Below, piece after piece: positions 1 through 64,000 of a stretch of 64,000 nt of DNA (position 1 is its first letter; each line of letters begins with the position of its first letter). The DNA comes from Thiomicrospira aerophila AL3. GTDB lineage: Bacteria; Pseudomonadota; Gammaproteobacteria; Thiomicrospirales; Thiomicrospiraceae. The DNA lies in the NCBI RefSeq assembly GCF_000227665.2, contig NZ_CP007030.1:620001-684000 (forward strand), read 5' to 3'. The notes beneath the pieces were generated by a model. That model did no database searches, was not told the origin of the DNA, and worked only from the letters and a program-made list of their open reading frames with translations. Both the position numbers and the translations under genes were made by a program.

Positions 1-477
1 GAGTTCAGCCATTTTTTGTTCAATAGCTTCTCGGTTCGCCAGCACTTGACTTTGTTCCGACACCAGCGCGCCAAGCTGACTATCAAGTGGCCGACTTTGG
101 AAGTAGCGGTCTGACGCTTCAGCACTTATTTTAGTGACCTTGCCTTCAATGCGAATTTGGCGCTCAAGCTGTGGCCAAAAGAAGTTCAGTGCTGCAAAGG
201 GGTTATGAGCAAGCTCTTCACCTTTATCGCTGGCATAGTTGGTGTAAAACACCAGGCCTGCTTGATCAAGCTGTTTTAGTAATACGATGCGGCTGTGGGG
301 ACGTCCCTGTGCATCGACAGTGGCTAGGTTCATCGCTGTGGGCTCATCAATCTTGTGATTAAACGCATCGTCAAACCAGGTTTGTAACAATAGCAAGGGT
401 GATTGCGCGATAAAACTATCGTCTAGCGCGCCCATTTCATAGCTTTTACGTTCGGCATGATAATCACGATTTGGCAT
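1..477 (-). CDS. pdxH: Pyridoxine 5'-phosphate oxidase (partial, 3' end outside window)
   Basis: FMN-dependent cytosolic oxidase that makes pyridoxal 5'-phosphate from pyridoxine or pyridoxamine phosphate, the last step of vitamin B6 synthesis and salvage. I translated 159 codons by hand from the ATG at 475-477. They begin MPNRDYHAERKSYEMGALDD and contain the family blocks MNLATVDAQGRPHSRIVLLK (FMN-binding fold), VFYTNYASDKGEEL and FFWPQLERQIRIEG. The C-terminal FMN/PLP-binding part is beyond position 1. It is transcribed away from parE. The match to PdxH is strong; only the missing end keeps it from being complete. Confidence 0.93.
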   Translation of the reverse strand, partial: MPNRDYHAERKSYEMGALDDSFIAQSPLLLLQTWFDDAFNHKIDEPTAMNLATVDAQGRPHSRIVLLKQLDQAGLVFYTNYASDKGEELAHNPFAALNFFWPQLERQIRIEGKVTKISAEASDRYFQSRPLDSQLGALVSEQSQVLANREAIEQKMAEL

Positions 478-575
478 GGTTCACCTCAGTTAGAACAGTT
501 AGGTTTTGGATGATCATCATACTGAGCGAAATCACAAAATGCTAGAGGCCCGCGCAAGCGCAGGCGTTTTTAGTC

Positions 576-581
576 TATAAT
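576..581 (+). promoter_or_regulatory. Candidate -10 box for parE
   Basis: A perfect TATAAT lies 31 bases before the parE ATG, in the 135-base divergent gap between pdxH and parE. No convincing -35 is visible at the usual distance, so this is only a -10 candidate. A good ribosome site (GGGAGA) precedes the parE start. Confidence 0.4.
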
Positions 582-612
582 TTGGATATATAAACACCTT
601 GGGAGACGTGCT

Positions 613-2496
613 ATGGCGCAGGGCTACAATGCAGCGGAAATTGAAGTGTTAACCGGTTTAGATCCGGTGCGCAAGCGTCCCGGTATGTATACCGATACGA
701 CACGCCCCAATCATCTTGCGCAAGAAGTCATCGACAATAGTGTCGATGAAGCCTTAGCGGGTTTTGCCAATCGTATTGAAGTGATTCACTATCCAGATGG
801 TTCAATGAGTGTTGAAGATAATGGTCGTGGGATGCCTGTTGATTTACATCCTGAAGAGGGCGTACCGGGTGTTGAGGTGATCTTGACCCGACTCCATGCC
901 GGTGGCAAGTTTTCTAATAAAGCTTACCAGTTTTCAGGTGGTTTGCATGGTGTCGGGGTATCGGTAGTGAATGCCCTTTCGAAGCGAGTTGAGGTAGAAA
1001 TTAAGCGCGATGGGCTGATTCATCATATTGCCTTTGAACAAGGGCTTCGAGTCAGTCCACTGACGGTGACTGGTAAAGTCGCTAAAAAACAAACCGGTAC
1101 ACGGGTCACTTTTTGGCCAGAAGCGCAGTTTTTTGATAGCCCTAAATATGCCTTGTCACGATTAAAGCATTTATTGCGTGCGAAGGCGGTGTTATGTCCA
1201 GGCCTGCTGATTCGTTTTGAGGACCAGCAAAGTCAAGACGTGCAAGAGTGGTGTTATGAATCCGGTTTGCAAGACTATTTAGTGCAGTCAATGGCTGATC
1301 AAGAGGTCTATCCAGCGGAGGGATTTGTCGGTGAGCACCGTGGTGAGCAAGAGGCGGTTGCTTGGGCGCTGGCTTGGCAGGTAGGCGGGGAAGCCCTGGC
1401 TGAAAGCTATGTCAATTTGATTCCGACCCCGCAAGGTGGCACCCATGTGAATGGTTTGCGCCAAGGGGCAACGGATGCGGTGCGGGAGTTTTGTGAGTTT
1501 CGTAATATGTTACCGCGTGGTTTAAAACTCTCTCCTGAGGATGTTTGGCAAAACGTCGCCTACGTACTGTCGGCCAAAATGCGTGATCCGCAGTTTGCCG
1601 GTCAAACTAAAGAGCGCTTGTCATCACGTGAAGCAGCAGTTTACATAGGTGGCGTGGTAAAAGATGCCTTGAGTCTCTGGTTGAATCAGCATACCGATGT
1701 TGCTGAAAAAATTGCTGAACTTGCGATTCAGAATGCGCAGTCGCGGCAACGTAAATCTAAGCAAGTGACCCGCAAAAAAATCACCATGGGACCGGCTTTG
1801 CCTGGCAAGTTGGCCGATTGTACTGAATCGGATTTAACCCTTACCGAGTTGTTTTTGGTTGAGGGGGATTCCGCTGGCGGTTCGGCCAAGCAAGCTCGTG
1901 ATAAACGTTTTCAGGCGATTATGCCGTTACGCGGTAAAATTCTTAATACTTGGGAGGTCGCTTCTGACCAGGTGTTGGCATCACAAGAAGTGCATGACAT
2001 TAGCGTGGCGATTGGGGTGGATCCTGGTAGCGATGATTTATCCGGTTTGCGCTATGGCAAAATTTGTATTTTGGCCGATGCCGATTCGGATGGCGCGCAT
2101 ATTGCAACGTTGATCTGTGCGTTATTTGTTAAGCATTTTCCAAAGCTCGTTGAACAAGGCCATGTCTATGTGGCTATGCCGCCGCTGTATCGTATTGATT
2201 GGGGCAAAAATGTGTCTTATGCGTTGGATGAAGCGGAGCGGCAAGGAATCTTTGATAAGATAGCAAATCAAAAATCTGCAGGGAAAGTTCAAGTTACGCG
2301 CTTTAAAGGTTTGGGTGAAATGAATCCATTGCAATTGCGGGAAACCACCATGGCGCCAGCAACACGCCGCTTAGTTCAGTTGCAATTAGACCCAAGTCAT
2401 GCCTTTGCCAAAATGGATATGATGTTGGCCAAAAAACGGTCGGCTGATCGTAAAGCTTGGTTGGAAGAAAAAGGCGATCTCGCTGAGGTCGTATAG
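613..2496 (+). CDS. parE: DNA topoisomerase IV subunit B
   Basis: ATPase subunit of topoisomerase IV, which with ParC decatenates daughter chromosomes. At 627 residues it has ParE size, shorter than most gammaproteobacterial GyrB proteins. The GHKL ATPase motifs are DNSVDEA at 41-47, DNGRGMP at 69-75 and GGLHGVG at 109-115. The TOPRIM motifs are EGDSAGG at 417-423 and the metal-binding DADSDG at 489-494. The ATG has a clear GGGAGA ribosome site. The TPR lipoprotein gene follows after 9 bases and is probably co-transcribed. parC is not in the window. Assignment as ParE rather than GyrB rests on length and the N-terminal pattern. Confidence 0.95.
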   Translation: MAQGYNAAEIEVLTGLDPVRKRPGMYTDTTRPNHLAQEVIDNSVDEALAGFANRIEVIHYPDGSMSVEDNGRGMPVDLHPEEGVPGVEVILTRLHAGGKFSNKAYQFSGGLHGVGVSVVNALSKRVEVEIKRDGLIHHIAFEQGLRVSPLTVTGKVAKKQTGTRVTFWPEAQFFDSPKYALSRLKHLLRAKAVLCPGLLIRFEDQQSQDVQEWCYESGLQDYLVQSMADQEVYPAEGFVGEHRGEQEAVAWALAWQVGGEALAESYVNLIPTPQGGTHVNGLRQGATDAVREFCEFRNMLPRGLKLSPEDVWQNVAYVLSAKMRDPQFAGQTKERLSSREAAVYIGGVVKDALSLWLNQHTDVAEKIAELAIQNAQSRQRKSKQVTRKKITMGPALPGKLADCTESDLTLTELFLVEGDSAGGSAKQARDKRFQAIMPLRGKILNTWEVASDQVLASQEVHDISVAIGVDPGSDDLSGLRYGKICILADADSDGAHIATLICALFVKHFPKLVEQGHVYVAMPPLYRIDWGKNVSYALDEAERQGIFDKIANQKSAGKVQVTRFKGLGEMNPLQLRETTMAPATRRLVQLQLDPSHAFAKMDMMLAKKRSADRKAWLEEKGDLAEVV

Positions 2497-2505
2497 GACG
2501 TTAAG

Positions 2506-4269
2506 ATGCAAAAATTATCAACCCGGGTAATCTTGTCTTTGCTGATGGGCGGAGGCTTAACTTTATCTGGTCTTACCGGTTGTCAGGGTCAAAGCGTTGG
2601 TGTAAAAAACGCTGAAGCTGCCGCTAGCACGGCTAGTCCAACCGAAGTATCGGCGACAACGCGTATTAATCCAGCTTGGATGTATGACATCTTAGTCGCT
2701 GAAATGTTGGCTACGCGCGGTGATTTTGTGAACGCTTATCATGTCATGATGCGTGTGGCGACGCAAAGTCAGGATGTCGCCTTGGCAGAGCGGGCATTTC
2801 ATTTTGCGATGAGTGGTTATGAGCCTCGCGGTATAGAGCAAAGCGCGGCTTTATGGCGTTCTTTGGAACCGGCGAATGCCACGCCATGGCGTATAGGTTA
2901 TATCATGGCCTTGCGTGAGGGTCAGCTTGAACAAGCGCTTGATAATTGGCAAGCTTATCGTCAGCGTTCCCCCGATTCGCTAGAAGCCGATTTAAAAAAT
3001 GCCGCTAGTCAGATTGGGCAGGGTATGGAGCCAGAGATTTCACTGGCATTTTTTGAACGACTTTATCAGCGATACCCAGATGAATGGAGTGCTGGCTATG
3101 TCTATGGTTTTGTGGCTGATCATTATCAACAACCTGAAATAGCGGCTGACGTATTAGAGCGAGTCATCTTACATCGTCAAGCAGAACGGGATGTGTTTTT
3201 TGCGCTGATAAATATTTATCTTGAACAAGATTGGTATGAGCGTGGGATTGAGGTATTAGCGGATTACATGGTAGCGCATCCTGATGACTGGACCATGCAA
3301 GAGCGCTATGCCAGACTTGAAGTACGTGCACAACGCTATGATGAGGCTGAAGCGCGCTACAAACGAATTGTGAGTAACAACCCGCAGGCGCGTGCTTCAC
3401 AATTATCTTTGGCCTTGTTGTTATTAGATCGAGGCGATTTTGAAACGGCGATTGGCCATTTTCATGCCTTGCTGCGCCAACAGGCCTACCAGGATATTGC
3501 CAATTACTATTTAGGTCTGATTTATCACGGGCAACAGGATGCGTCTCTAGCGCGTCAGCATTTAAGTCGTGTGGTGGATCCAGCTTACTATGTCGATGCC
3601 CAATTAGTACTTGCTCAACTTGATTTTGATAGTTTGGGGCTTGAAGCCGCTTTAGCGCGTTTAGCGCCCTTGTCATCACCCGATGAAACAACGCAGTTAA
3701 AACTTTGGCGTGCGCAAGGTTCGTTTTATTCACAAGCCCAGCGGTGGGACGATGCTGTGCGCGTATATCGTCAAGCCTATTCTCAAAACGCTGAATTGTT
3801 AACCTTAATTTATGCTTATGCGCTTAGTCTCTATAACGCGGGTTTGGATGATGAGTATGAGTTTGTTATCAAGCGCGCATTACAATTTTATCCTGATGAA
3901 GCAGATTTATTAAATGCGTTGGGTTATTTTTATGCTGAAAAAGGCATTAATCTAGCCGAAGCGAAAGTGTTGCTTGATCGTGCATTGGAAATCGCGCCTG
4001 ATGCATTTCATATTATTGATAGTCGCGGTTGGTTAGCTTACCAGCAGGGTGAGTTTGAATTAGCCGAGAAGCTGATTACCCAGGCCTGGTCAATGCAGCA
4101 GGATGAAGAAGTTTTGTTGCATTTGATTAAGGTGAAGTGGGCTTTGCGTAAGTTTGAGGAGGCAGAAGCCTTATGGCAGCGTTATCACCATCAATATGCT
4201 GATAACGAAGCGGTGCAAAATCTGCTGATTAAGTTGCGGGCTGATTCAAAAAAATCAGCCACACAGTAG
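2506..4269 (+). CDS. TPR-repeat lipoprotein of unknown role
   Basis: A 587-residue protein with a lipoprotein signal: basic start, hydrophobic core (residues 8-20), lipobox LTGC with the lipidated Cys at 26, so probably outer-membrane anchored. The rest is a chain of helical tetratricopeptide repeats. The clearest lie near the C-terminus, with motifs such as ALGYFYAEKGINLAEAKVLL and GWLAYQQGEFELAEKLI. TPR proteins are scaffolds; no enzyme motif is seen. It is 9 bases downstream of parE and may share its transcript, although a functional link is not obvious. Related large TPR lipoproteins are widespread in Gammaproteobacteria, mostly uncharacterised. It is too long for NlpI. Confidence 0.85.
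   Translation: MQKLSTRVILSLLMGGGLTLSGLTGCQGQSVGVKNAEAAASTASPTEVSATTRINPAWMYDILVAEMLATRGDFVNAYHVMMRVATQSQDVALAERAFHFAMSGYEPRGIEQSAALWRSLEPANATPWRIGYIMALREGQLEQALDNWQAYRQRSPDSLEADLKNAASQIGQGMEPEISLAFFERLYQRYPDEWSAGYVYGFVADHYQQPEIAADVLERVILHRQAERDVFFALINIYLEQDWYERGIEVLADYMVAHPDDWTMQERYARLEVRAQRYDEAEARYKRIVSNNPQARASQLSLALLLLDRGDFETAIGHFHALLRQQAYQDIANYYLGLIYHGQQDASLARQHLSRVVDPAYYVDAQLVLAQLDFDSLGLEAALARLAPLSSPDETTQLKLWRAQGSFYSQAQRWDDAVRVYRQAYSQNAELLTLIYAYALSLYNAGLDDEYEFVIKRALQFYPDEADLLNALGYFYAEKGINLAEAKVLLDRALEIAPDAFHIIDSRGWLAYQQGEFELAEKLITQAWSMQQDEEVLLHLIKVKWALRKFEEAEALWQRYHHQYADNEAVQNLLIKLRADSKKSATQ
4239..4260 (+). terminator. Weak terminator-like hairpin at end of TPR gene
   Basis: Perfect 8-base inverted repeat GGCTGATT / AATCAGCC with a CAAAAA loop, inside the last codons of the TPR gene. 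There is no following T-run, so it is not a classical intrinsic terminator. It could end or protect transcripts of the two convergent genes that meet here (stops 6 bases apart). Confidence 0.3.
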
Positions 4270-4274
4270 TCACC

Positions 4275-6111: not shown

Positions 6112-7683
6112 TTGGCCAATATTGTTAAAGCGACGTTGAGTGTAGGGGGCATGACTTTCATATCACGCATTTTGGGGTTTGTGCGCGATATGGTGATTGC
6201 TCGATTGTTTGGCGCATCGGCAGGCGCTGATGCGTTCTTTGTCGCCTTTAAAATCCCTAACTTTTTTCGACGCTTATTTGCTGAGGGTGCGTTTTCACAA
6301 GCCTTTGTGCCGGTGTTGGCAGAAACCAAAGAGCATCGTGGCCATGAGGCGGTGCGCCATCTCGTTGCGGCTATTGGCCTGCGACTGGGTTTTATTTTAT
6401 TGATCTTAACCCTGTTTGGGGTGTTTGGTGCATCCTTGTGGATGACCGTCTTTGCACCAGGCTTTCGCAGTGATCCGGAAAAATTTGCGCTTGCGACTGC
6501 TATGTTACAACTCACTTTCCCCTATTTGTTATTAATCTCCTTAGTGGCCTTGTCTTCGGCGCTGATGAATACCTACAACAAATTTGCTGTACCGGCGTTT
6601 ACACCGGTTTGGTTAAATCTGGTGTTAATTGGCTGTGCGATATGGTTGGCGCCACAACTTGAAGAACCGGTGATGGCCTTGGCTTGGGGGGTATTATTAG
6701 CAGGCCTGGTGCAGTTGTTGTTTCATTTGCCATTTTTGTGGCAGATGAACTTATTACCGAAACCTACTTTGGCCTCGGATCCAGGTGTTGGTGAAGTCAA
6801 ACGTTTAATGTTGCCAGCCTTGTTTGGCGTGTCAGTGGCACAGATTAATCTATTGGTCGATACGATTTTAGCCTCGTTTTTGGTGACCGGTAGCGTGTCT
6901 TGGCTCTATTACTCCGACCGGTTAATGGAGTTTCCGCTGGGGGTGTTTGGTGTGGCATTAGCTACCGTGGTATTGCCGGGTTTATCAAAAAAAGCGGCCC
7001 GGGCTGATTGGGCGGGTTTTAAACGCGATCTTGATTTTGCGCTCAAGCTCGTGGTGTTGATTGCACTACCCGCTATGTTAGGTTTGTTATTGCTTGCGCA
7101 CCCATTACTGGTTACTTTATTTTTTTACGGTGAATTTACGGCCTTTGATGCGCTGATGTCGAGTCAAAGTTTAATGGCCTATTCACTCGGTTTACTGGGG
7201 TTCATTTTGGTAAAGGTACTCGCGCCCGCGTTTTATGCCCGCAAAGAGATGAAAACCCCGGTCAAAATCGCGGTGGTAGCCCTGGTCAGTAATATCATGT
7301 TGAATTTAATCTTGATTGGTCCTTTGGCCCATGTTGGTTTGGCCTTGGCGACGTCAATCTCGGCGATGCTAAATGCTGGGTTGCTCTATTATTTTTTGCT
7401 TAAACAAGGCGTGTTTAGTTTGCAAACCCCTTGGCGAGCTTTTTTGCTGCAAGTGAGTTTCGGCTTAATTGCGATGATTGCGGTGATTCTACTGATCAAT
7501 CCAGAGCAGCAGGCCTGGTTAGCTTTTAATGCTTGGCAGCGGGTCAGTTGGTTATTAGGTATGATTGTACTGGCGATGCTGGCGTATTTAGCGACCATGA
7601 TGGTGGTCGGTTTTCGGCCAAGAGCGTTTTTGCGCCAGCTTAAAGCTGGCAAAGATAAGCCAGAAAACCTTGACCTGACGTGA
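6112..7683 (+). CDS. murJ: Lipid II flippase MurJ
   Basis: Inner-membrane flippase of the MOP superfamily (MviN) that exports lipid II for peptidoglycan synthesis. The 523 residues are strongly hydrophobic with about 14 membrane segments. The N-terminal block GGMTFISRILGFVRDMVIAR and the segment GADAFFVAFKIPNFFRRLFAEGAFSQAF are diagnostic. The start is a TTG at 6112 with AGGA at 6100-6103; the ATG at 6108 is out of frame. ribF follows after a gap that has its own promoter candidate. The murJ-ribF-ileS-lspA order is common in Gammaproteobacteria. Confidence 0.96.
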   Translation: MANIVKATLSVGGMTFISRILGFVRDMVIARLFGASAGADAFFVAFKIPNFFRRLFAEGAFSQAFVPVLAETKEHRGHEAVRHLVAAIGLRLGFILLILTLFGVFGASLWMTVFAPGFRSDPEKFALATAMLQLTFPYLLLISLVALSSALMNTYNKFAVPAFTPVWLNLVLIGCAIWLAPQLEEPVMALAWGVLLAGLVQLLFHLPFLWQMNLLPKPTLASDPGVGEVKRLMLPALFGVSVAQINLLVDTILASFLVTGSVSWLYYSDRLMEFPLGVFGVALATVVLPGLSKKAARADWAGFKRDLDFALKLVVLIALPAMLGLLLLAHPLLVTLFFYGEFTAFDALMSSQSLMAYSLGLLGFILVKVLAPAFYARKEMKTPVKIAVVALVSNIMLNLILIGPLAHVGLALATSISAMLNAGLLYYFLLKQGVFSLQTPWRAFLLQVSFGLIAMIAVILLINPEQQAWLAFNAWQRVSWLLGMIVLAMLAYLATMMVVGFRPRAFLRQLKAGKDKPENLDLT

Positions 7684-7756: not shown

Positions 7757-8746
7757 ATGCGTTTAATTCGTGGCCTTCATAATATAAGCCAGTTTACTGC
7801 CGATTTTGCACAGGGCAGCGTGGTCACCATTGGCAATTTCGATGGCGTTCACCTCGGTCATCAATGTGTGTTGGCGCAGGTAAAACAGCAAGCACAAGCG
7901 CTGAATTTACCGAGTGTGGCGATGGTGTTTGAACCGTTTCCGATTGAGTATTTTCGACCGGAACAGGCGCCGGTTCGGTTGATGAATTTGCGCGAAAAAG
8001 TACGTGCGCTGGCAGACGTGGGCATTGATTATTTGCTGTGTGTCAGCTTTAATCGCCAATTTGCCGCCCAAAGCGCGGTCGATTTTGTCACGCAGATTTT
8101 GCACCAGCAGTTACAGGTGCGCCATTTGGTGATAGGCGATGACTTTAAGTTTGGTTATCAGCGTCAGGGCGATTTTGCTTTTTTGCGCCAATGCGGTGAG
8201 CAAATGGGATTCAGTGTCAGCGCCATGCCGACCTTTAATCTTGACGGCGCGCGCGTGAGCAGTACGCGGGTACGCCAGGTGCTGGCCAAGCCGGATTTGG
8301 CCGAGGCCGCAAGGCTGATGGGGCAGGGCTTTCGGTTTGAAGGGCGTGTCATTCACGGTCAAAAACTGGGGCGCACCATTGGTTTTCCGACCTTAAACCT
8401 GAACCCTAAGCGCTTGCAAATGCCCGTCAGCGGCGTGTTTACCGTCAGGGTTGCAGGCCTGAGTGAGCAACCTTGGCCGGGCGTAGCCAATATAGGGGTG
8501 CGCCCCACGGTACATGGTCAGCGGCCTTCAATTGAAGTACATTTATTTGACTGGCATAAAATGGTATACGGCGCCCACGTTGAAGTGCGCCTTGAGGCGT
8601 TTATCCGCCCAGAAATGAAATTCAGTGGTTTGCCCGCGCTGCAAGCGCAAATTGCGCAAGATGCCGAGCAGGCCAAATTGTTATTAATCAATTCAAATCA
8701 TTCAATTTTGAGTAGCGAACATGACCGATTACAAAGCAACGCTTAA
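7757..8746 (+). CDS. ribF: Bifunctional riboflavin kinase / FAD synthetase
   Basis: Makes FMN and then FAD from riboflavin in the cytosol. The N-terminal FAD synthetase domain has [14 protein letters not shown] (nucleotidyltransferase HxGH-like motif) and the central ISSTR-like VSSTRVR. The C-terminal riboflavin kinase domain has [11 protein letters not shown] and [11 protein letters not shown]. The ATG at 7757 gives [11 protein letters not shown], the normal RibF start; an in-frame TTG at 7745 is less likely. Length is 329 residues. The 3' end overlaps the start of ileS by 26 bases, so the two are translationally coupled. Confidence 0.95.
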
Positions 8747-11549
8747 CCTTCCTGAAACCGACTTCCCGATGCGTGGCGGGTTGCCACAGCGCGAGCCTAA
8801 GCAGGTGCAGGCCTGGTTGGATGACGATCTGTATCAAACCGTGCGTCAGGCGATGGCGGGGCGGCCAAAATTTATTCTGCACGATGGGCCACCCTATGCC
8901 AATGGTGATATTCATATCGGTCACGCGGTCAATAAAGTGTTGAAAGACATGATTGTTAAATCTAAAGGTTTGAGTGGCTTTGATGCGCCGTTTGTGCCGG
9001 GCTGGGATTGTCATGGTTTGCCGATTGAATTGAATGTTGAGAAAAAACACGGCAAGGTCGGCGTCAAGCTTAATGAGCGTGAATTCCGCCAGGCCTGCCG
9101 CGATTATGCGCAAAGCCAGGTTGAAGGTCAGATGAAGGATTTTCAACGCTTAGGGATTATGGCGGATTGGAACAATCCTTATTTAACCAAGGCGTTTGAT
9201 TTTGAAGCCAATGAAGTGCGTGCGCTGGCTAAAATCATTGAAAAAGGTCATCTGGTCAAAGGCACCAAGCCGGTTTATTGGTCGATTGGTGGCCGTTCGG
9301 CACTCGCGGAAGCGGAAGTGGAATACGATGAAAAACGCTCCAATGCAATTGATGTCCGCTTTAAGGTGATGGACGAAGCCGCGTTTTTTGAGCGCTGTCA
9401 CCATATTGAGGACCATACAGGCGAAGGCCCGATTTCGGTGGTGATTTGGACGACCACGCCCTGGACACTGCCTGCTAACCAGGCGGTGGCGATTCACCCT
9501 GAACTTGAATATGCGTTGGTACAGGTCGAAACCGAGCAGGGCAAAGAGCGCCTGTTTATGGCGGAAGCCTTGATTAAAGATGTGATGGCGAAATGCGATA
9601 TCGAGCATTATCGTGTGGTGGCCTATGGTCGCGGCGATCAGTTTGATTTAATCCGTTTGCAGCATCCGTTTTATGAGCGCATTGTGCCGATGATTTTGGG
9701 TGAGCATGTCACCACCGATGCCGGTACCGGCTGTGTGCATACCGCGCCGGGTCATGGTCAAGACGACTTTATTGTTGGCTTAAAATACGATTTAGAGGTG
9801 GATTGCCCGGTCGATGGTTCGGGCAATTTCGTCGCCGGCACCCCCTTGTTTGAAGGCTTGAATGTACTTAAAGCCGATGAGGCGGTGTTGGACGTTTTGC
9901 GTGAGCGCGGTGCGTTATTGCATCATGAAGCGATTCGTCATAGCTATCCGCATTGCTGGCGTACCAAAACGCCATTGATTTTCCGCGCCACGCCGCAATG
10001 GTTTATTAGCATGGATCAACAAGGTCTGCGTGCCAGTGCGATGGAGGCGATTAAAACCGTGGAATGGGTGCCGGATTGGGGTCAAAACCGGATTGAAGGC
10101 ATGATTGACGGCCGTCCGGATTGGTGTATTTCGCGCCAGCGTTTATGGGGTGTGCCGATTTGTATTTTTGTACATAAAGTCAGCGGCGAAATGCACCCAC
10201 GCACCACCGAACTGATGGAGTTGGTCGCGCAACGGATCGAACAGCAGTCGATTGATGCCTGGTATGACTTGGATGCCCGCGAGTTGCTGGGTGATGAAGC
10301 CAACGACTATGAAAAAGTACAGGATATTTTGGATGTCTGGTTTGATTCTGGCGTGACCCATTATGCGGTTTGTCAGCAGCGTGATGAACTCCATGCGCCA
10401 GCGGATTTGTATTTAGAAGGGTCGGATCAGCATCGTGGTTGGTTCCAGTCGTCACTCTTGACCGGCATGGCGATGAACAATGCCGCACCTTACAAACAAG
10501 TGCTAACCCACGGCTTTACGGTGGATAAAGACGGCAAAAAAATGTCCAAGTCGAAAGGTAATGTGGTCGCGCCGCAAAAAATCGCCGACACCTTGGGCGC
10601 AGATATTTTACGTCTGTGGATTTCGGCCGCCGATTACCGTTATGAAATGACGGTGTCGGACGAAATTATCAGCCGCACCGCTGATGCCTATCGCCGTATT
10701 CGCAATACTGCACGTTTCTTATTGGCGAACTTGAACGGCTTTAATCCGGCTACCGATTTGGTGGCCTATGAGGATTTATTGCCACTCGATAAATGGGCGG
10801 TCGGGCATGCGCATCAATTGCAGCAGCAGATTGTTGAATCTTATGAACAGTATCATTTCCATCAGATTTATCAGGCGGTGTCACATTTCTGCTCGATAGA
10901 AATGGGGGCGTTTTATTTAGACGTGATTAAAGACCGTCAGTACACCTGCAAAACCGACGGCTTAGCACGGCGTTCGGCACAAACCGCCTTGTATCATATT
11001 ATCGAAGCCATGACGCGCTGGATTGCGCCGATCTTAAGTTTTACCGCCGAAGAACTTTGGCAGTATATTCCGGGTGAGCGTGAAAAAACCGTGTTTGTGG
11101 CGACCTGGTACGAAGGTTTAACCGCGTTAGATGAAAGCGCTGAGATGAACTCGGCTTATTGGGCGCAGATGATTGAGGTGCGTTCTGCGGTCTCTAAGCG
11201 CCTGGAAGAGTTGCGTAATGCTGGAGAAATTAAAGCCAGCCTCACCGCACAGGTTAAACTCTATGCTGATGGCGAGCTGTATAACGCATTAGCCAAGTTG
11301 CAAGACGAATTGCGTTTTGTATTGATTACCTCCTACGCGCAAGTCTTGCCACTGGCAGAGAAATCCGCCACCGCCGTCGAATCCGAATTAGACGGCTTAT
11401 GGCTTGATGCACAAGCGGTACAGGCCGAAAAATGCCCGCGCTGCTGGCATCATCGTGAAGATATCGGTGCCGATGCCGATCATCCTGACTTGTGCCAGCG
11501 TTGCGTTGATAACGTCGTTGGGGATGGCGAAGTGCGCCATTTTGCTTGA
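8721..11549 (+). CDS. ileS: Isoleucyl-tRNA synthetase
   Basis: Class I aminoacyl-tRNA synthetase charging tRNA-Ile, with an editing domain for valine. The 942 residues are full length. HIGH is at 65-68 in [16 protein letters not shown] at 607-611, and the editing-domain block [15 protein letters not shown] is present. A C-terminal zinc module has Cys905, Cys908, Cys925 and Cys928 (CPRC...CQRC). These features fit the bacterial (mupirocin-sensitive type) IleS. It overlaps ribF and is followed by lspA after a 200-base gap that contains a long hairpin. Confidence 0.97.
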
Positions 11550-11575
11550 TATTGGCTTTAACCGATCAACTCTGC

Positions 11576-11651
11576 GCGGCTGGGTTATGCCCTTGCTCCT
11601 TCGGCTTTTTTCTTCGAAAAAAGAGGCGTCGCAAGAGCACAACCTAGCCGC
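11576..11651 (+). repeat. Long imperfect hairpin between ileS and lspA
   Basis: The outer arms at 11576-11596 and 11631-11651 pair over 21 positions with three imperfections, one of them a G-U wobble. An inner stem CTTTTTT (11605-11611) pairs with AAAAAAG (11617-11623). I found no second copy in the window. It could be an attenuator or processing site in the ileS-lspA transcript, or a dispersed palindromic element. Confidence 0.55.
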
Positions 11652-11749
11652 TTACAAGTTAGAGCAAGTCGAAAGCGCAAGATGCAAATCTTTAGTACAA
11701 CTTTATAGTCCAAGACAAAACAGCAAGACTTATCACGCAAGGTAATGAT

Positions 11750-12289: not shown

Positions 12290-12297
12290 ATTAGGTT
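12273..12297. terminator. Palindrome holding both stop codons of convergent genes
   Basis: AACCTAATTCAA and TTGAATTAGGTT form a 12-base inverted repeat around a single central base. The lspA stop (12287-12289) and the minus-strand diguanylate cyclase stop (12293-12291) both lie inside it. With the outer CCCA/TGGG-like bases it may act as a bidirectional end of transcription, although no T-run follows on either strand. Confidence 0.5.
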
Positions 12298-24639: not shown

Positions 24640-24650
24640 GAGTTTTGCTT

Positions 24651-27722: not shown

Positions 27723-27723
27723 C

Positions 27724-31805: not shown

Positions 31806-31827
31806 AATTATCTCCATCATATAAATA

Positions 31828-52047: not shown

Positions 52048-53094
52048 TTGAATATTCGTATTGCTATCGATGCGATGGGCGGGGATAAGGGGCTTGATGT
52101 TACCATCCCTGCCAGTATAAACGCGCTAAACACCTTTGCAGACCTCCACTTAATTCTTGTCGGTGACGAGCCGCAAATCAGTCAAGCCCTATCACAGCAC
52201 AGCAAGGTTCCTCTTCAAAGAGTCACTATTCAGTCTGCTTCGCAAGTAGTTGATATGGATGAGTTGCCTTCACAAGCCCTTCGTAACAAGAAAGATTCCT
52301 CAATGCGCGTGGCGCTGGATCTGGTGAAGCAAGATCAAGCTCAGGCCTGTGTGAGTGCGGGTAATACCGGGGCTTTGATGGCTACAGCGAAATTTGTGCT
52401 TAAAACTCTGCCAGGTATTCATCGCCCCGCCATTTGTACGGCGATGCCGACCATGAAAAAGCCGGTTTATATGCTGGATTTGGGTGCCAATGTCGGTGCA
52501 GATGGCGAGAGTTTAGCGCAGTTTGCGATTATGGGATCGGTGCTGGCTAAAACACTTCATCCAGATATGACCCCACGTGTTGGTTTGCTCAATATTGGTG
52601 AAGAAGAGATGAAGGGGCATGATCGTATTAAGCTTGCTCAGCAGTTGTTGCGTCAAACACCGATCAATTATGTCGGCTATGTTGAAGGTGATGATATTTT
52701 CAAAGGTAATGTCGATGTGATTGCCTGCGATGGTTTTGATGGCAACATTGCACTAAAAGCGAGTGAAGGTGTCGCTAAGATGATTAGCTATTATCTTAAA
52801 CAAGCCTTTATGCGTAATGCGTTAACCAAGGTCATCGGTTTAATGGCCGCACCGGTATTGAAAGCCTTTAAGGCGAAAGTGGATCCACGCAACTACAATG
52901 GCGCTTCATTTTTAGGTTTACGAAAATGCGTCATCAAAAGCCATGGTGGTGCGGATAGTTTAGCCTTTGAAAATGCGATTAAAGTCGCACGCATAGAGGT
53001 TTTACATGATGTGCCTAGTCGAATTCGTGATGAAGTCGCCCGGTTATTGGATGAGCAAAATCACACTACTCACAAGGACGGATTAGATGACTAG
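52048..53094 (+). CDS. plsX: Phosphate acyltransferase PlsX
   Basis: Converts acyl-ACP to acyl-phosphate for phosphatidic acid synthesis at the membrane. It has 348 residues. The motifs AIDAMGGDKG at the start, SAGNTGALMA in the middle and CDGFDGNIALKASEG are diagnostic. The start is TTG, 6 bases after rpmF. Its 3' end overlaps fabH by 8 bases. The acyltransferase partner PlsY is not in the window. Confidence 0.95.
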   Translation: MNIRIAIDAMGGDKGLDVTIPASINALNTFADLHLILVGDEPQISQALSQHSKVPLQRVTIQSASQVVDMDELPSQALRNKKDSSMRVALDLVKQDQAQACVSAGNTGALMATAKFVLKTLPGIHRPAICTAMPTMKKPVYMLDLGANVGADGESLAQFAIMGSVLAKTLHPDMTPRVGLLNIGEEEMKGHDRIKLAQQLLRQTPINYVGYVEGDDIFKGNVDVIACDGFDGNIALKASEGVAKMISYYLKQAFMRNALTKVIGLMAAPVLKAFKAKVDPRNYNGASFLGLRKCVIKSHGGADSLAFENAIKVARIEVLHDVPSRIRDEVARLLDEQNHTTHKDGLDD

Positions 53095-54140: not shown

Positions 54141-55082
54141 ATGAAAACTGCGGTCGTTTTTCCTGGTCAAGGTGCACAGTCAGTCGGTATGTTGTCGGAT
54201 TTGGCGGCAACAAATCCTGCCGTGGGTGAGTATTTTTCACGTGCCTCTGCTGTACTGGGATATGACTTATGGCAGGTGGTTTCGGCAGGGCCAGAAGATA
54301 AGTTAAATGATACTGCGGTGACTCAGCCCGCTATGCTAGTGGCCGGTTATGCCTGTTACGCCAGTTTAAAAGCGCAGTTGCCCGATTGGCAGCCCAGTTA
54401 CTTTGCGGGTCATTCGTTAGGTGAATACACCGCTTTGGTGGCCGCTGAGGCGTTATCGTTGGAACAGGCTGTGGCCTTAGTTGCCAAGCGAGGGAGTTTG
54501 ATGCAGCAAGCGGTCGCACCCGGTGCGGGTGCAATGGCTGCCGTACTTGGTTTAACCGATGAGCAGGTTGAGCAGGCCTGCTTATCAGCTGCACAGGGCG
54601 CAGTAGTGTCGGCGGTTAACTATAACTCGCCGGGTCAAGTCGTGATAGCGGGAGAAACGGCTGCAGTAGAGCGTGCAATGGCTCAAGCAAGTGAGTTGGG
54701 TGCTAAGCGGGTAGTCCCTTTAGCGGTTAGTGTGCCATCTCATTGTGCTTTGATGAAACCGGCGGCAGATGAATTAGCGAAAGCGATTGCGGCCGCAGAC
54801 TGGCAGATGCCTAGGATTCCTGTTTTGCACAATGTGAATACGCAGGCCTCAACGTCTATTGTGGATTTACAAGCCGCATTAGTTGCGCAACTTTATCAGC
54901 CAGTGCAATGGGTTAAAACCATTGAATATTTGGCGGCAGACGGTGTGACACAACTGGTTGAATGCGGACCAGGCAAGGTATTAGCCGGTTTAAATCGCCG
55001 CATTGATAAGAACATGGCGGTTGCAAGTATTTACGATTCTGCTACATTAGCCAACACAGTTAACGCAATAAAGGACAACTAA
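54141..55082 (+). CDS. fabD: Malonyl-CoA:ACP transacylase
   Basis: Loads malonate onto acyl carrier protein. It has 313 residues, with the active-site Ser in GHSLGEYTALVAA, the N-terminal FPGQGAQSVGM and catalytic His in VSVPSHCALM. AGAGGG precedes the ATG at a suitable distance. fabG starts at the base right after its stop. Confidence 0.96.
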   Translation: MKTAVVFPGQGAQSVGMLSDLAATNPAVGEYFSRASAVLGYDLWQVVSAGPEDKLNDTAVTQPAMLVAGYACYASLKAQLPDWQPSYFAGHSLGEYTALVAAEALSLEQAVALVAKRGSLMQQAVAPGAGAMAAVLGLTDEQVEQACLSAAQGAVVSAVNYNSPGQVVIAGETAAVERAMAQASELGAKRVVPLAVSVPSHCALMKPAADELAKAIAAADWQMPRIPVLHNVNTQASTSIVDLQAALVAQLYQPVQWVKTIEYLAADGVTQLVECGPGKVLAGLNRRIDKNMAVASIYDSATLANTVNAIKDN

Positions 55083-57546: not shown

Positions 57547-58961
57547 TTGTTCAGCCGTTAAATAGTGTTGGTGTGACGCTAGTACGTCAACCTTGGGCCG
57601 CGCAGGATTTATTGCCCTTGCATCGACTGGCTCCGCAGCGCTATCAACAGCTGCTAGAAAGTGTTGCTAAATCAGACGCCACGCTAGTTGACTCAGCCGC
57701 CTTAGGGCGGTTTGATATTTTATTCGCCTATTGTGAAGCGCCGTTGCGTTTAGATGTGCTGGAGCAAGCGACTCGTTTTCGTCATCGCTTTGAGCAGGCC
57801 TGGTTGTCTGAGCAACGTCAGCTTTCAAAAGTGGATCGTGAGTTGCTTGGGGATGTGCCTTTTTGGGGGGGCTGGTTTGGTTATTTTGCGTATGAGTATG
57901 CGGCGGTCATTGAACCCAGTTTAAACCTAACCACCAGTGATTTGCCGCTAGCGTGGCTGGCTAAAGCACCGGCAGCGATTATCCTTGATCATGCTAAACA
58001 TGACGTCATTTTTGTGGCTCCAACGGACCAACCCGCGATGCTAGCGCAGTTGCAAACGGATTATGCTGAACTGTCGGCACAGACCCAAACACCTTCACCA
58101 TCAACCCAGCTTGTTGCCGGTGCGTGGCAGGAAGATCCGCCTGCTCGCTATACCGACAGTGTGTTAAAAATTCGTGACTACATTTTGGCCGGCGATGTGT
58201 TTCAGGTCAATATATCGCGGTTATGGCAGCAAGCTCGGGTGGACTTTACGCCTGCTGAGCTGTATGCCCAGTTGCGAGTACATAATCCGGCACCGTTTGC
58301 TTGCTTGGTCAACCTAGACCAAGCTAATGGCCAGGCCTGGTCGATTATCTCATCTTCGCCCGAACGCTTGGTGAGAGTGCGGGATCAATGGGTAGATACC
58401 CGTCCTATTGCTGGGACGCGCAAGCGTAGCGATTCTCTAGCGGCAGACCAAGCGCTGATGGCTGAGCTGATCGCGCACCCTAAAGAGCGAGCTGAACATA
58501 TCATGTTAATTGATCTTGAACGCAATGATTTAGGGCGTATTTGTCAACCGGGCAGTGTTGAAGTCAATGAGCTGATGGTGATTGAAAGTTATCAGCATGT
58601 TCATCATATTGTGTCCAACGTGCGCGGCAAACTACAAGCTCAGTTGACGCCTTTACAGGTTATTGAGGCGATGTTTCCAGGTGGCACGATTACGGGTTGT
58701 CCAAAAGTGCGTTGTATGGAGATTATTGCCGAGCTTGAAATGTCGCCACGTGAAGCCTATACCGGTTCTGTGGGTTATATCAATTATGATGGCAGTATGG
58801 ATTTTAATATTTTGATCCGCAGTTTTCTTCAGCAAGGACAAGCATTACGTTTTCGAGCCGGTGCGGGCATTGTTATAGACTCGGATCCCGATGCTGAACT
58901 CGCTGAAACCCGTCATAAAGCAAAGGGCCTGTTAAAAGCCCTTAGCCCGCATGAATGCTGA
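57543..58961 (+). CDS. pabB: Aminodeoxychorismate synthase component I (PabB-like)
   Basis: Chorismate-binding enzyme that, with a glutaminase subunit, makes 4-amino-4-deoxychorismate for folate. It has 472 residues. Conserved blocks are [40 protein letters not shown] and [16 protein letters not shown]. The catalytic-Lys motif PIKGT of E. coli PabB reads PIAGT here, as in anthranilate synthase TrpE. The pabC neighbour and the RFDILFAY segment argue for PabB; TrpE is the alternative. The start is TTG overlapping fabF, and the gene overlaps pabC by 7 bases. The usual fabF-pabC pair is here interrupted by this gene. Confidence 0.82.
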
Positions 58962-59842: not shown

Positions 59843-59856
59843 GTGACTATTAGAGC

Positions 59857-60957
59857 ATGACAAACGCAAAGCATTCAGATTCGAACCCCCGTTCAGGGGT
59901 AACATTCCGCTGGATAAAATTGCTGCAGTGGATGTTAGTTATTAGTGGATTACTGGTGCTGTTAGCAGGCCTAGGAACCGCGATTTCAGTGTGGCATTGG
60001 TGGCACGCGCCGATTGCCGGCACAATTCATACCCAGCAGGCAGGTGACGCTGAGCTGGTACGTATTAAATTGCAACCAGGTCAGTCTGCGCAGCGCATAG
60101 CCAATGAACTCGCCAGTCAGAATTTACTTGAACGTCCAGAATGGTTTGTCTGGTGGTTACGTTGGCAAGATCAAGCGCACCTAATTCGGGCTGGTGAGTA
60201 TGATATCAATCCACACTGGACACCAGCACAACTGCGAGATGCGTTACTGGCTGGTGGCAGGGTGCGCCATCCTTTTACAATTGTGCCGGGAGAAACCTTG
60301 GCGCAAGTGCGGCAAAAGATACAAGGCTTGGAGAATATTCGTCACACTCTAAACGACGAGGAGTGGCTAAAGCTTGGCGAACGCTGGGCTGCCATGGGCG
60401 TGACGCCTTTTCTAGAAGGCTGGTTACTACCTGAAACTTATTTTTATCAAGCCGGCGAAGCGGATTGGCAGCTTGTTGAACGTGCAGTGCTGGCCATGGT
60501 CGCCACCCTTAACCAGGCCTGGTCATCATCGAATGAGGCTGAAGGCCTGCCGTTGCGATCGCCTTATGAGGTATTAATCTTGGCATCGATTATCGAAAAA
60601 GAAACCGGGGTTGCACACGAGCGTGAGATGATTAGTGGCGTGTTTGTGCGTCGCTTACAGCGTAATATGCGCTTGCAAACCGATCCCACGGTGATTTATG
60701 GCATGGGTGATGCCTACCAGGGCCGGATTGGGCGCGCAGGCTTAGATACCCCTACGCCCTATAATACCTACATTATCAGAGGCTTGCCGCCCACGCCTAT
60801 AGCCATGCCATCCGCAGCAGCGGTCATGGCAGCGGTGAATCCAGATCAGGGCGATTACTTGTTTTTTGTCGCCAAAGGCGGTGGCGAGCATCATTTTTCG
60901 GTGACCTATGAAGAACATCGTCGAGCTGTGCGACGTTATATTCTCAATCGTCCATAA
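59857..60957 (+). CDS. mltG: Endolytic murein transglycosylase MltG
   Basis: Single-pass inner-membrane enzyme that cuts nascent glycan strands and limits their length. It has 366 residues, with a membrane segment at about 22-45 (LQWMLVISGLLVLLAGLGTA), a LysM-like domain and the YceG catalytic domain with LEGWLLPETYFY and the catalytic Glu in ASIIEKETG. The final block LPPTPIAMPSAAAVMAAVNP is typical. It follows pabC by 14 bases, the standard order. Confidence 0.94.
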   Translation: MTNAKHSDSNPRSGVTFRWIKLLQWMLVISGLLVLLAGLGTAISVWHWWHAPIAGTIHTQQAGDAELVRIKLQPGQSAQRIANELASQNLLERPEWFVWWLRWQDQAHLIRAGEYDINPHWTPAQLRDALLAGGRVRHPFTIVPGETLAQVRQKIQGLENIRHTLNDEEWLKLGERWAAMGVTPFLEGWLLPETYFYQAGEADWQLVERAVLAMVATLNQAWSSSNEAEGLPLRSPYEVLILASIIEKETGVAHEREMISGVFVRRLQRNMRLQTDPTVIYGMGDAYQGRIGRAGLDTPTPYNTYIIRGLPPTPIAMPSAAAVMAAVNPDQGDYLFFVAKGGGEHHFSVTYEEHRRAVRRYILNRP

Positions 60958-60980
60958 TTAATTAGGCGCAAAGGAAAGAG

Positions 60981-61607: not shown

Positions 61608-62569
61608 CGGCCTTAACAGACTATCCTTGGTTAACCCCGGCCTGGCAGGCCTGGTTACAAGCCAAAACGCGATTAGGTCATGCCTACTTGTTGACCGGCT
61701 CTATGGGTATTGGTATGGATATCTTGTTGCGTCAAATGGCGCATTCGTTAATGTGTGACCAAGTGGGTGAGGGTGGCCATCCATTAGAACTTGATCAACA
61801 TCCTGATTTTATGACCCTGACGCCCCTAGAAGGTAAAAAAGAACTGACAATCGATCAAGTGCGCAACCTGCAACAATGGTTAAATCAAACCGCGCATCAG
61901 GGCGGTCGCAAACTGGTGGTCATTGAGCAGTTGGAGCGCCTTAATTTAGCGGCGTTTAATGCCTTGTTGAAAAGTCTTGAAGAACCGCCGGCTAATTGTA
62001 TTTTTTTATTATCTACCTATCAGCCTGGGCGTTTGCCGGCCACGATTCGTAGTCGCTGTCAGTGGCTAAAAATCGCCTCTCCCACGATGGATCAGGCCAA
62101 AAATTGGTTAGCCACTCAGCAGCCTCTTGCGGATGCCCAACTTGAACGCGCACTTTTGATGAATTGGCAAGCGCCCTTAGCCGCATTAAGCTGGTTGGAA
62201 CAGGGGTATTTAGAGTTAGATGCGCAATGGCAAGCCGATTTAGCAGGGCTGGTGGCACGCCAAAAAACTGTTACAAATGTTGTACAGAGTTGGTTAAAAT
62301 GGGATGAAAATTTTAATATACTGCAGGCTTTTCAGGTTGCGGTGCAACAAGCCTTATGGGCGAGTTTGGCGGATGAAGGGCCGCAGCAGGCCTGGTTAGA
62401 CCTTGCGCAGCAGCTATTGTGGGCCGAAAAAGATCTGCGCGGCAACGCCAATAAAACACTGTTGTATGAAAGCATTACCATGGCTTACTTAATGGCTCAC
62501 CAACAACCAACCCAGCCCTTAACTCGAATTGATTTTAGTCCGATTCCGAGCCAGGGTTTTGGGTTATAG
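61595..62569 (+). CDS. holB: DNA polymerase III subunit delta'
   Basis: Stator subunit of the clamp loader, 324 residues. The AAA+ core has HAYLLTGSMGIG, a P-loop remnant lacking the Lys as in E. coli delta', and the SRC motif in ATIRSRCQWL. FNALLKSLEEPPANCIFLL is the highly conserved block. The four-Cys zinc module normally inserted near residues 50-65 is absent; only one Cys remains there. It is in the conserved tmk-holB-tatD order and overlaps tmk. Confidence 0.92.
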   Translation: MSRLAALTDYPWLTPAWQAWLQAKTRLGHAYLLTGSMGIGMDILLRQMAHSLMCDQVGEGGHPLELDQHPDFMTLTPLEGKKELTIDQVRNLQQWLNQTAHQGGRKLVVIEQLERLNLAAFNALLKSLEEPPANCIFLLSTYQPGRLPATIRSRCQWLKIASPTMDQAKNWLATQQPLADAQLERALLMNWQAPLAALSWLEQGYLELDAQWQADLAGLVARQKTVTNVVQSWLKWDENFNILQAFQVAVQQALWASLADEGPQQAWLDLAQQLLWAEKDLRGNANKTLLYESITMAYLMAHQQPTQPLTRIDFSPIPSQGFGL

Positions 62570-62578
62570 AGGGACGTT

Positions 62579-63361
62579 ATGATTATCGATTCACACTGTC
62601 ATTTAAATATTCTCGATCCTGATGTGGTGGGCACCACCGAACAGGTTATTGCTCAAGCGGCTGATTTGGGCGTTCATAAAATGATGTGTGTCGCGATAGG
62701 CCCTGATGCTTGGGATGATGTGCTGGGTTTGTGTGATCGTCACGACCCAGTTTATGCCAGTATTGGTGTGCATCCTTGTAGCGGACCGGAGGTCGTGGTC
62801 AGCGATGAGCAATTGCGATCAGCATTGGCGCACCCTAAAGTCTTGGCGGTAGGCGAAGTCGGCTTAGATTATTTTCATCAAAAACCTGATGAGGTGGACT
62901 TGAGCTATCAGCATGCTCGTTTTCGCCAGCATATTCGGATTGCAAAAGAAATCAATAAGCCGCTGGTGATTCATACTCGCGCCTCCACGCCCGATGTATT
63001 GCAGATTTTGCAACAAGAGGGTGCCGATCAAGTTGGTGGCATCATGCATTGCTTTGTCGAAGATTTAGCCACGGCTGAAGCAGCGATCGCACTGGGTTTT
63101 TATATTTCCTTCTCGGGGATTGTGACCTTTAAAAACGCCAAAGCGCTGCATGAAGTTGCGAAAGCCTTGCCATTAGAGCGGATTTTGGTCGAAACCGATG
63201 CGCCTTATTTAGCGCCTGTGCCTTATCGAGGCAAAACCAATCAACCGGGTTATACCCGTTATGTGGTAGAACAACTCGCGGAATTGCGCGGTGAATCTTT
63301 TGAAACCGTTGCTCAGGCCACCACGGCCAATTTTGCGCGTCTATTCCGCCTGGAGGCCTAA
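62579..63361 (+). CDS. TatD-family metal-dependent hydrolase (YcfH)
   Basis: A 260-residue TIM-barrel hydrolase. Metal ligands: DSHCHLN at 3-9, Glu in GEVGLDYFHQKP, His in PLVIHTRAS, His in IMHCFVED and Asp in ETDAPYLAP. Members are deoxyribonucleases or related hydrolases; E. coli places ycfH after holB as here. GAGGGA precedes the ATG. The in vivo substrate is unknown. Confidence 0.92.
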   Translation: MIIDSHCHLNILDPDVVGTTEQVIAQAADLGVHKMMCVAIGPDAWDDVLGLCDRHDPVYASIGVHPCSGPEVVVSDEQLRSALAHPKVLAVGEVGLDYFHQKPDEVDLSYQHARFRQHIRIAKEINKPLVIHTRASTPDVLQILQQEGADQVGGIMHCFVEDLATAEAAIALGFYISFSGIVTFKNAKALHEVAKALPLERILVETDAPYLAPVPYRGKTNQPGYTRYVVEQLAELRGESFETVAQATTANFARLFRLEA

Positions 63362-63364
63362 GTC

Positions 63365-64000
63365 ATGAGTCAGTCATCAACGCTTAACATCAAAGACGAG
63401 CAAGTGACCTTAGCGGCTGATGCGATTGGTACGCAAGGTACTCCGCCTTATTCATGGCAGCGTATTTTCGATTTAGTCCTGCAGCACAAGGGTTTGTTGA
63501 TTAAAGCGCATATTATTGCGATTTTAGCGACGCTGGCCACCGTGCCCCTGCCGTTATTACTGCCCTTGTTGGTTGATGAGGTGTTGTTAAATGATCCTGG
63601 TTGGATTGTAGCAGGCCTGCAAGCCATCGCACCGGAGACATGGTATGGGGCGATTTATTATATTGTTGCGATAACGGTGATTACCATTCTGCTACGCGCT
63701 ATCGGCGTGGGTCTTGGAGTGTGGCAAATGCAGCAATTTACCGTGATTGCCAAGGATGTAACCTATCGTATTCGCAGGGATTTATTGGCGCGGGTGCAGG
63801 GCGTATCCATGGCGCAATATGAAACCTTGGGTACAGGGTCGGTGAATGCCACTCTGGTTAATGATGTAAATACCATCGATACTTTTATTGGTACCACGGT
63901 GGGCAAGTTAATTGTCGCTGTGCTCAGTTTGGTGGGTATGACGTTGATTTTGTTATGGTTACATTGGCAACTGGCGGTGTTTATTTTGTTGATGAACCCG
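63365..64000 (+). CDS. ABC transporter, membrane domain (partial, 3' end outside window)
   Basis: I translated 212 codons from the ATG at 63365 to the window edge. The start MSQSSTLNIKDEQVTLAADA is followed by the first membrane helices (about 50-70, AHIIAILATLATVPLPLLLP; about 98-118; about 190-210) and the coupling region RIRRDLLARVQGVSMAQYE typical of exporter-type ABC transporters. Position 4 bases after tatD suggests co-transcription. The ATPase half is not visible, so MsbA-like or multidrug-type cannot be decided. Confidence 0.8.
   Translation, partial: MSQSSTLNIKDEQVTLAADAIGTQGTPPYSWQRIFDLVLQHKGLLIKAHIIAILATLATVPLPLLLPLLVDEVLLNDPGWIVAGLQAIAPETWYGAIYYIVAITVITILLRAIGVGLGVWQMQQFTVIAKDVTYRIRRDLLARVQGVSMAQYETLGTGSVNATLVNDVNTIDTFIGTTVGKLIVAVLSLVGMTLILLWLHWQLAVFILLMNP

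Follow-up and report, generated by a model that had tools for sequence, protein, structure and literature searches.

Comparison with described iterated words

The closest described systems are the highly iterated palindromes (HIPs) of cyanobacteria and the uptake sequences of Neisseriaceae and Pasteurellaceae. An earlier prediction made from the sequence alone (here, the original prediction) had rightly named these as the parallels for the octamer CAGGCCTG, which recurs throughout a 64,000-nucleotide stretch of the Thiomicrospira aerophila AL3 genome (contig NZ_CP007030.1, positions 620,001 to 684,000; the window). We describe this word in the window, in the genome that holds it (G000; single contig, 2,158,359 bases), and in related genomes, where those with >200 copies are called carriers. 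Much of one bacterial family shares the element, which has dialects and has undergone several gains or losses.

Like HIP1 (GCGATCGC) and the alternate HIPs, which number about 500 to 2,500 per Mb, CAGGCCTG is a G+C-rich palindrome; HIPs, too, are common to related genomes, absent from some, and replaced by another palindrome in some (PMC4390886). Elhai, who found one or more putative matching methyltransferases in each HIP-bearing cyanobacterial genome, called the relation between the two a mystery (PMC4390886). Unlike HIPs, CAGGCCTG has several carriers in which the families searched offered no plausible matching methyltransferase; it is also a different word, has an A/T-flanked site in several lineages, and has a measured effect on the proteome.

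The DNA uptake sequence (DUS) of Neisseriaceae reaches about 1,900 copies in 2.2 to 2.3 Mb, near the density of CAGGCCTG, and shares with it dialects, intragenic copies, and, for some carrier groups, terminator-like hairpins (PMC3630211). Dyad pairs of the DUS are found in Simonsiella and Kingella, and the densest case has few near words; Simonsiella holds 1,294 sim/kingDUS as overlapping dyads, which, according to Frye et al., may indicate dimer-based recognition, and the kingDUS of K. oralis is sharp, with 5,918 copies and 21% more with one mismatch (PMC3630211). Unlike the DUS, CAGGCCTG was seen as a palindrome only, its hosts are gammaproteobacterial chemolithotrophs, and no ComP match over the cutoff was found. 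The uptake signal sequence (USS) of Pasteurellaceae resembles it in having a core (of nine bases) with adjoining A/T-rich regions, and in having dialects, but is non-palindromic and has its A/T regions downstream only; its predicted receptor is PpdA/ComN (PMC12616744). Chi sites are likewise octamers present at about a thousand copies (1,008 in Escherichia coli; PMC1939737). No earlier report of CAGGCCTG as a bacterial genome element was found in the literature, among the matches listed. Chi, an asymmetric word with a single reading direction, was rejected as an identity for CAGGCCTG, which is an exact palindrome. The kingDUS is spelled AGGCAGCCTGAA, and its dyad has CAGGC-N-GCCTG, near CAGGCCTG; this spelling was not found in the text of Frye 2013.

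Abundance of the octamer in the window and genome

CAGGCCTG, with 75% G+C, occurs 1,128 times in the 2.16 Mb of G000 (523 per Mb, one per 1.9 kb), against a single occurrence of a control word made of the same letters reversed. Our recount of the window returned the 45 exact copies that had been counted by hand, from position 253 to 63612-63619. The octamer is the unit rather than the hexamer within it, as had also been proposed, for AGGCCT occurs 53 times in the window and only eight of these lie outside CAGGCCTG. It is the top octamer of the window, where the next palindromic octamer has eight copies. The exact matches, to which no strand is assigned, are as follows.

Copy 1 of CAGGCCTG: 253..260
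Copy 2: 1199..1206
Copy 3: 4081..4088
Copy 4: 6701..6708
Copy 5: 7510..7517
Copy 6: 8454..8461
Copy 7: 8808..8815
Copy 8: 9090..9097
Copy 9: 11805..11812
Copy 10: 12726..12733
Copy 11: 15246..15253
Copy 12: 16059..16066
Copy 13: 17693..17700
Copy 14: 19475..19482
Copy 15: 19577..19584
Copy 16: 20983..20990
Copy 17: 28108..28115
Copy 18: 29096..29103
Copy 19: 29306..29313
Copy 20: 29429..29436
Copy 21: 29972..29979
Copy 22: 30562..30569
Copy 23: 32548..32555
Copy 24: 32781..32788
Copy 25: 34137..34144
Copy 26: 34455..34462
Copy 27: 35317..35324
Copy 28: 35460..35467
Copy 29: 35815..35822
Copy 30: 36686..36693
Copy 31: 39906..39913
Copy 32: 40431..40438
Copy 33: 41576..41583
Copy 34: 42931..42938
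Copy 35: 43328..43335
Copy 36: 46713..46720
Copy 37: 50576..50583
Copy 38: 52342..52349
Copy 39: 54573..54580
Copy 40: 57795..57802
Copy 41: 58332..58339
Copy 42: 60514..60521
Copy 43: 61646..61653
Copy 44: 62387..62394
Copy 45: 63612..63619

Null models were applied to a 464-kb sample of G000 (the window and 20 further stretches, each of 20 kb). With the CAGGCCTG sites masked, a third-order Markov model predicted 6.8 copies, whereas 270 were present, a 40-fold excess and the highest observed/expected ratio in the sample; a genome count near expectation, named beforehand as the outcome that would undo the claim, was not what we found. Synonymous-codon shuffles (200 shuffles for the window) gave a mean of 3.9 and a maximum of 9 copies in genes against 45 observed in the window, and a mean of 22.0 and a maximum of 37 against 255 in the 464 kb, an excess of 11- to 12-fold. 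Words one mismatch away, summed over 12 classes, numbered 188 against 156 expected, with TAGGCCTG (27 versus 9.3) and CAGTCCTG (11 versus 5.0) standing out. The spacing of copies was random-like (coefficient of variation [CV], 0.98).

Genes were delimited throughout as uncurated open frames with a minimum length of 100 codons. By this measure, 258 of the 270 copies were within genes, for which reason an intergenic repeat of the repetitive extragenic palindrome or bacterial interspersed mosaic element (REP/BIME) type was rejected. The coding copies began at codon positions 1, 2, and 3 in 133, 109, and 16 cases, respectively; the last frame, which requires an AGG codon, is rare yet present. Occurrence in all three frames had been noted in the original prediction, and the accompanying claim that DNA rather than protein is under the force was right.

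Per 20-kb stretch, G000 had 1 to 20 copies, and density climbed with the G+C content of the stretch (Spearman coefficient, 0.64; 21 stretches). The lowest stretch (L149; G+C, 0.40) had one copy, and another of similar composition (L151; G+C, 0.408) had six. L149 (G000:C1:1242001-1262000) also holds a PF01555 methyltransferase and is perhaps an acquired island.

Distribution across the family and class

The order is represented by 62 genomes, all of one family. Thirty-two of them are carriers, with 236 to 1,173 copies, and 30 are non-carriers, with 0 to 74; the reversed control word did not exceed 36 in any. All nine genomes of the genus to which the window belongs are carriers. The ParE of the window is 93% identical to that of Thiomicrospira sp. 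ALE5. Near-complete genomes occur on both sides, and some non-carriers have a like G+C content. Among genomes of other families (365 of 369 drawn from the class), the maximum was 338 copies (control, 20; 4.1 Mb). The highest counts outside the family were those of G167 and G283 (family f107), with 320 and 338 copies and control counts of 34 and 20, respectively.

Kinship of the genomes was taken into account for the carrier label only, using a tree of parE from 54 of the 62 genomes (in G001, G002, G004, G016, G020, G036, G044, and G051, the gene was lacking or too partial). The label requires at least seven changes on this tree, against 17.7 in shuffles, and four of the seven are forced by well-supported branches. 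Parsimony was applied without direction, so the changes may be gains or losses. One-mismatch words were near expectation in non-carriers, and the idea of decay relics there was rejected.

Anatomy and dialects of the site

Copy counts cover whole genomes; for dialects, tripeptides, and gene placement, each genome was sampled over 4 to 464 kb. As the original prediction had held, the flanks are constrained: in the window, G or C adjoins the octamer in 41 of 45 copies on each side taken singly and in 38 of 45 on both. In the 464 kb of G000, C or G stands beside CAGGCCTG in 95%, followed by A in 79% and a weak T at position -4 (41%), and 158 of 270 copies are ASCAGGCCTGST. The two-fold symmetry spans 12 bp. 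What flanks one half-site is nearly independent of what flanks the other, symmetric pairs being slightly in excess.

Dialects were sought in 56 of the 62 genomes (all but G002, G004, G016, G020, G036, and G044). Outside the window's clade, the flank profiles rest on 5 to 56 sites per group, several on 5 to 19. Other carrier lineages have a longer site, about ACCAGGCCTGGT, with A/T-rich positions at approximately -8 to -5. The A/T share at -6 is 85 to 97% in six of eight carrier groups, 68% in G056 to G058, and 50% in the window's clade; in G006 and G009 it reaches 95 to 97% at -7 to -5, though their DNA is 44% A/T. The dialect of G000, G053, and G060 is ASCAGGCCTGST, and that of G056, G057, and G058 is CACCAGGCCTGGTG; in G024, G047, and G048 the inner flank positions are A or G in 69%, whereas most other groups have C. 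Judged by eye, genomes in the same clade of the parE tree have agreeing flank profiles.

G027 has respelled the word. In 80 kb of this genome, CCGGCCGG occurs 37 times and CAGGCCTG never (12 copies genome-wide); 33 of the 37 have A and T flanks, giving ACCGGCCGGT, and there are only seven one-mismatch copies. The new word is a G+C-rich palindrome with the same GGCC center, and its half-site is that of CAGGCCTG less one base pair (ACCAGG to ACCGG). No alternative palindrome stood out in 24 other non-carriers sampled at 4 to 60 kb each, a search that a rarer or non-palindromic word could escape.

Conservation of sites and effect on proteins

Sites of the window are conserved in relatives beyond other octamers of the same letters. 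In G060, 33 of 40 sites were intact, against 399 of 868 same-letter octamers (binomial P, 2e-6), and in G053, 18 of 35 were intact, against 82 of 841 (binomial P, 6e-10); sites over gaps (one in G060 and two in G053) are outside these counts.

The word alters the proteins it runs through. The tripeptide QAW (Gln-Ala-Trp) occurs 111 times in G000 against 12.9 expected (8.6-fold), and 103 of these are spelled CAGGCCTGG. QAW is similarly enriched in 28 of the 31 other carriers (146 versus 22.3, or 6.6-fold; G034, G035, and G036 were left out) and is at expectation in 23 of the 29 non-carriers besides G027 (17 versus 15.9, or 1.1-fold; G002, G004, G016, G020, G037, and G044 were left out). The permuted controls WAQ and AQW had ratios of 0.6 to 1.1 in all three sets. 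For QAC, the counts were 38 versus 7.2 in G000, 41 versus 12.2 in the other carriers, and 17 versus 10.2 in the non-carriers, where it is mildly high too. PAG, which is spelled by G027's own word, occurs 22 times against 3.5 expected in G027, with ratios of 0.9 to 1.1 elsewhere. In G000, the word spells 70 of 184 AGL and 34 of 70 PGL tripeptides, against 2.1 and 1.0, respectively, expected from codon usage. It spells 0 of 77 SGL and 3 of 64 TGL, values near zero that are expected if the base flanking the octamer must be C or G.

Intergenic sites and hairpins

Sites were in excess between genes in three of five groups: G056 to G058 (21 of 45 sites, where 12.3% of the DNA is non-coding), g3 plus G061 (15 of 45; 7.9%), and g6 (27 of 77; 10.3%). 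The DUS is likewise in excess between genes (PMC3630211). Perfect arms of at least 8 bp from the center were found at 9 of 21, 4 of 15, and 5 of 27 intergenic sites in these groups, respectively, and at 2 of 24, 3 of 30, and 4 of 50 coding sites. Some intergenic sites are the center of longer hairpins, examples of which look like terminators, although the count of T runs was made without a control.

Methyltransferases

The original prediction had suggested looking for a methyltransferase of matching specificity. Profile searches with PF00145 (m5C), PF01555, PF02086, and PF07669 over the 62 genomes yielded no family that tracks the word, and the methyltransferase link was rejected on this basis. 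PF00145 had no match in any of the nine genomes of the window's genus. Ten of the 32 carriers (G006, G022, G024, G026, G047, G049, G050, G058, G060, and G061) had no match to PF00145, PF01555, or PF02086. Four of these, the near-complete G022, G050, and G061 and the 86%-complete G049, had PF07669 frames of only 287 to 335 amino acids, in a search that did not extend to PF02384 and rarer families. Frames of this length match the protein methyltransferases PrmC and PrmB in size. Longer PF07669 frames (525 to 1,093 amino acids) were present in G006, G024, G026, G058, and G060, and G047 had two PF07669 matches, one of them among the matches listed. Within the four families searched, several carriers thus offered nothing plausible, and a role as a methylation mark is now unlikely.

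One PF01555 methyltransferase match, in L086 (G059:C1:407271-411209), lies in a locus with a tandem repeat: at 600-1309, CCAGCTGG recurs seven times at exact steps of 117 bases (39 codons).

Uptake machinery

Searches for the DNA channel protein ComEC found it in all carriers but one (31 of 32; the exception, G036, is 82% complete) and in 25 of 30 non-carriers, and with this distribution it was rejected as the gene that switches the word on and off. In G023, a non-carrier with 74 copies that is nested in a carrier clade, comEC ends at approximately residue 599 of 867. ComEC was not found in its sister G037 (92% complete) or in G051 (99%), both non-carriers. These states fit a loss of competence but prove nothing, because CAGGCCTG is already at background in G023 (0 in 80 kb versus 2.5 expected) and most non-carriers keep ComEC. 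The cut comEC of G023, at about 8600-11330 of L221 (G023:C1:78501-98500), adjoins phage-like genes and a D12 methyltransferase.

A search with PF12019 (GspH/FimT), the other receptor profile used besides that of ComP, had matches in three non-carriers and in no carrier. The secretin of the mannose-sensitive hemagglutinin (MSHA) type, which the window encodes, was found in 31 of 32 carriers (none in G049; partial, with a stop, in G021 at G021:C1:1755649-1756098) and in 23 of 30 non-carriers; in G027, the match is split into two frames (G027:C1:2177305-2178668). Present in carriers and non-carriers alike, it too was rejected as a switch gene. The pilus features of the window are the following.

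24645-31820: MSHA-type pilus cluster, with the secretin, an MshE-like ATPase, a T2SSF platform protein, and two proteins without a Pfam match
Within 24645-31820, other strand: protein with a prepilin N terminus

Elsewhere in G000, L150 (G000:C1:1350001-1370000) has at 7964-12470 an array of roughly 76 units spaced 60 bases apart, whose repeat contains CTGCCTGTGCGGCAG and which looks like a clustered regularly interspaced short palindromic repeat (CRISPR) array.

Weighing the explanations

We tentatively read CAGGCCTG as the core of a palindromic self-DNA signal that would work like the uptake sequences of Neisseriaceae and Pasteurellaceae and spread by biased transformation, a reading whose chances we put at slightly under half. 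The signal would be ASCAGGCCTGST in G000 and, in several of the other carrier lineages, approximately ACCAGGCCTGGT bordered by A/T tracts. Site-bearing DNA would be favored by a putative surface DNA receptor, presumably carried on a type IV pilus as a symmetric dimer; given competence and biased uptake, alleles lacking the site would be steadily replaced, through transformation and recombination, by site-bearing ones, a drive that would continue until the genome held about one site per 2 kb. What makes the word look most like an uptake signal is its density and dialects taken together with the A/T tracts, the hairpins of some groups, the altered proteome, the low number of sites in the A+T-richest stretch, and the patchy distribution. 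The presence of ComEC in 31 of 32 carriers against 25 of 30 non-carriers, and its truncation in G023, also agree with this reading. Several findings weigh against it. Uptake sequences known so far lack palindromic form according to PMC1939737, although the dyad DUS of Simonsiella, for which Frye et al. raised recognition by a dimer, provides a precedent that weakens this objection. The near-background level of one-mismatch words (188 versus 156) is sharper than the graded excess expected from uptake drive (PMC1939737), although the kingDUS of K. oralis is sharp as well. Intergenic excess is missing in the clade of the window (14 of 335 sites versus 6.7% non-coding) and slight in G054, G055, and G059 (7 of 50 versus 8.4%). 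ComEC is kept without visible truncation in 24 of 30 non-carriers (in one, split over contigs), so that a missing word does not require a missing channel. ComP (PF16732) had no match over the cutoff in any of the 62 genomes, in a search whose 14 control genomes were also without a match. The comEC and MSHA pilus neighborhoods, compared in 11 carriers and 10 others each for families seen in at least four genomes, held no carrier-confined gene; the best family was in 7 of 11 carriers and 4 of 10 others. Finally, no transformation test of these bacteria was found in the literature, among the matches listed.

A dimeric cytoplasmic DNA-binding protein, serving the nucleoid, segregation, recombination, or repair, may instead land on the word, with selection keeping about one site per 2 kb; HIP1 might be a site of this kind, which here would act without methylation. 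We consider this unlikely but a serious contender. The symmetry and the all-or-none core, with near words at background, give the word its likeness to such a site, and the 12-bp two-fold span, the A/T tracts beyond it in other lineages, the near-independent half-site flanks with their slight excess of symmetric pairs, the random-like spacing, the conservation of sites, and the retention of ComEC in most non-carriers also agree with it. It is harder to reconcile with a carrier label that changes at least seven times (four forced) with near-complete genomes on both sides, and with the respelling in G027; no candidate protein was found, and each of a thousand sites would need to be worth changes in protein. 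Of the roles first suggested for the octamer, the uptake signal and the dimeric-protein site are still standing, and the methylation mark has become unlikely. A HIP in Elhai's sense, in which the DNA is marked by a methyltransferase for GGCC, AGGCCT, or CAGGCCTG and the word accumulates through methyl-directed repair or some other use, is very unlikely. It would suit a palindrome of this G+C content and density that is replaced in G027 by another with the same GGCC center, the putative matching methyltransferase of every cyanobacterial HIP genome (PMC4390886), and the longer PF07669 frames of five carriers (for G047, among the matches listed only); against it stand the lack of PF00145 in the window's genus, the ten carriers without the three main families, and the four whose PF07669 frames are all short. 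Still more improbable is site-specific gene conversion or mismatch repair (Vsr-like) that converts near words to CAGGCCTG without use to the cell. Nine of 12 one-base differences are a G in the window and an A in the aligned relative, whichever the direction of change, and the near word with the strongest enrichment is TAGGCCTG, which arises by decay of the first C; however, a system removing TAGGCCTG should make it rare, not common, and near words together are not depleted. That composition or codon usage alone makes CAGGCCTG common is hardly credible: density does climb with G+C content, but the shuffles (255 versus a mean of 22.0) refute it, and the 40-fold excess over the Markov model, the near words at background, and the 0 to 74 copies in 30 relatives, some of like G+C content, argue the same way.

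Under the self-DNA signal reading, the word might be a further, independently evolved, genome-saturating tag that stands beside the DUS and USS and differs from methylation-linked HIPs; we offer this proposal as possible while thinking it somewhat likelier to fail than to hold. Such a tag would be a palindrome with a symmetric dimer as its reader and without methylation, would switch dialect by dropping one base pair per half-site, and would write its own tripeptides into the proteome.

Significance

The function of HIPs is still unexplained, and in cyanobacteria the word and a methyltransferase go together; here, a HIP-like word occurs in carriers for which our searches turned up no plausible methyltransferase. 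How strong a force lies behind such words can be gauged from the proteome effect. Because carriers, non-carriers, and a dialect switch stand side by side in one family of sulfur-oxidizing bacteria, the reader can be sought by comparison of whole gene sets. If the word is an uptake signal, it would represent a new origin of self-DNA recognition outside the two host-associated families, in chemolithotrophs, with a dimer-on-palindrome geometry suggested before only for the dyad DUS.

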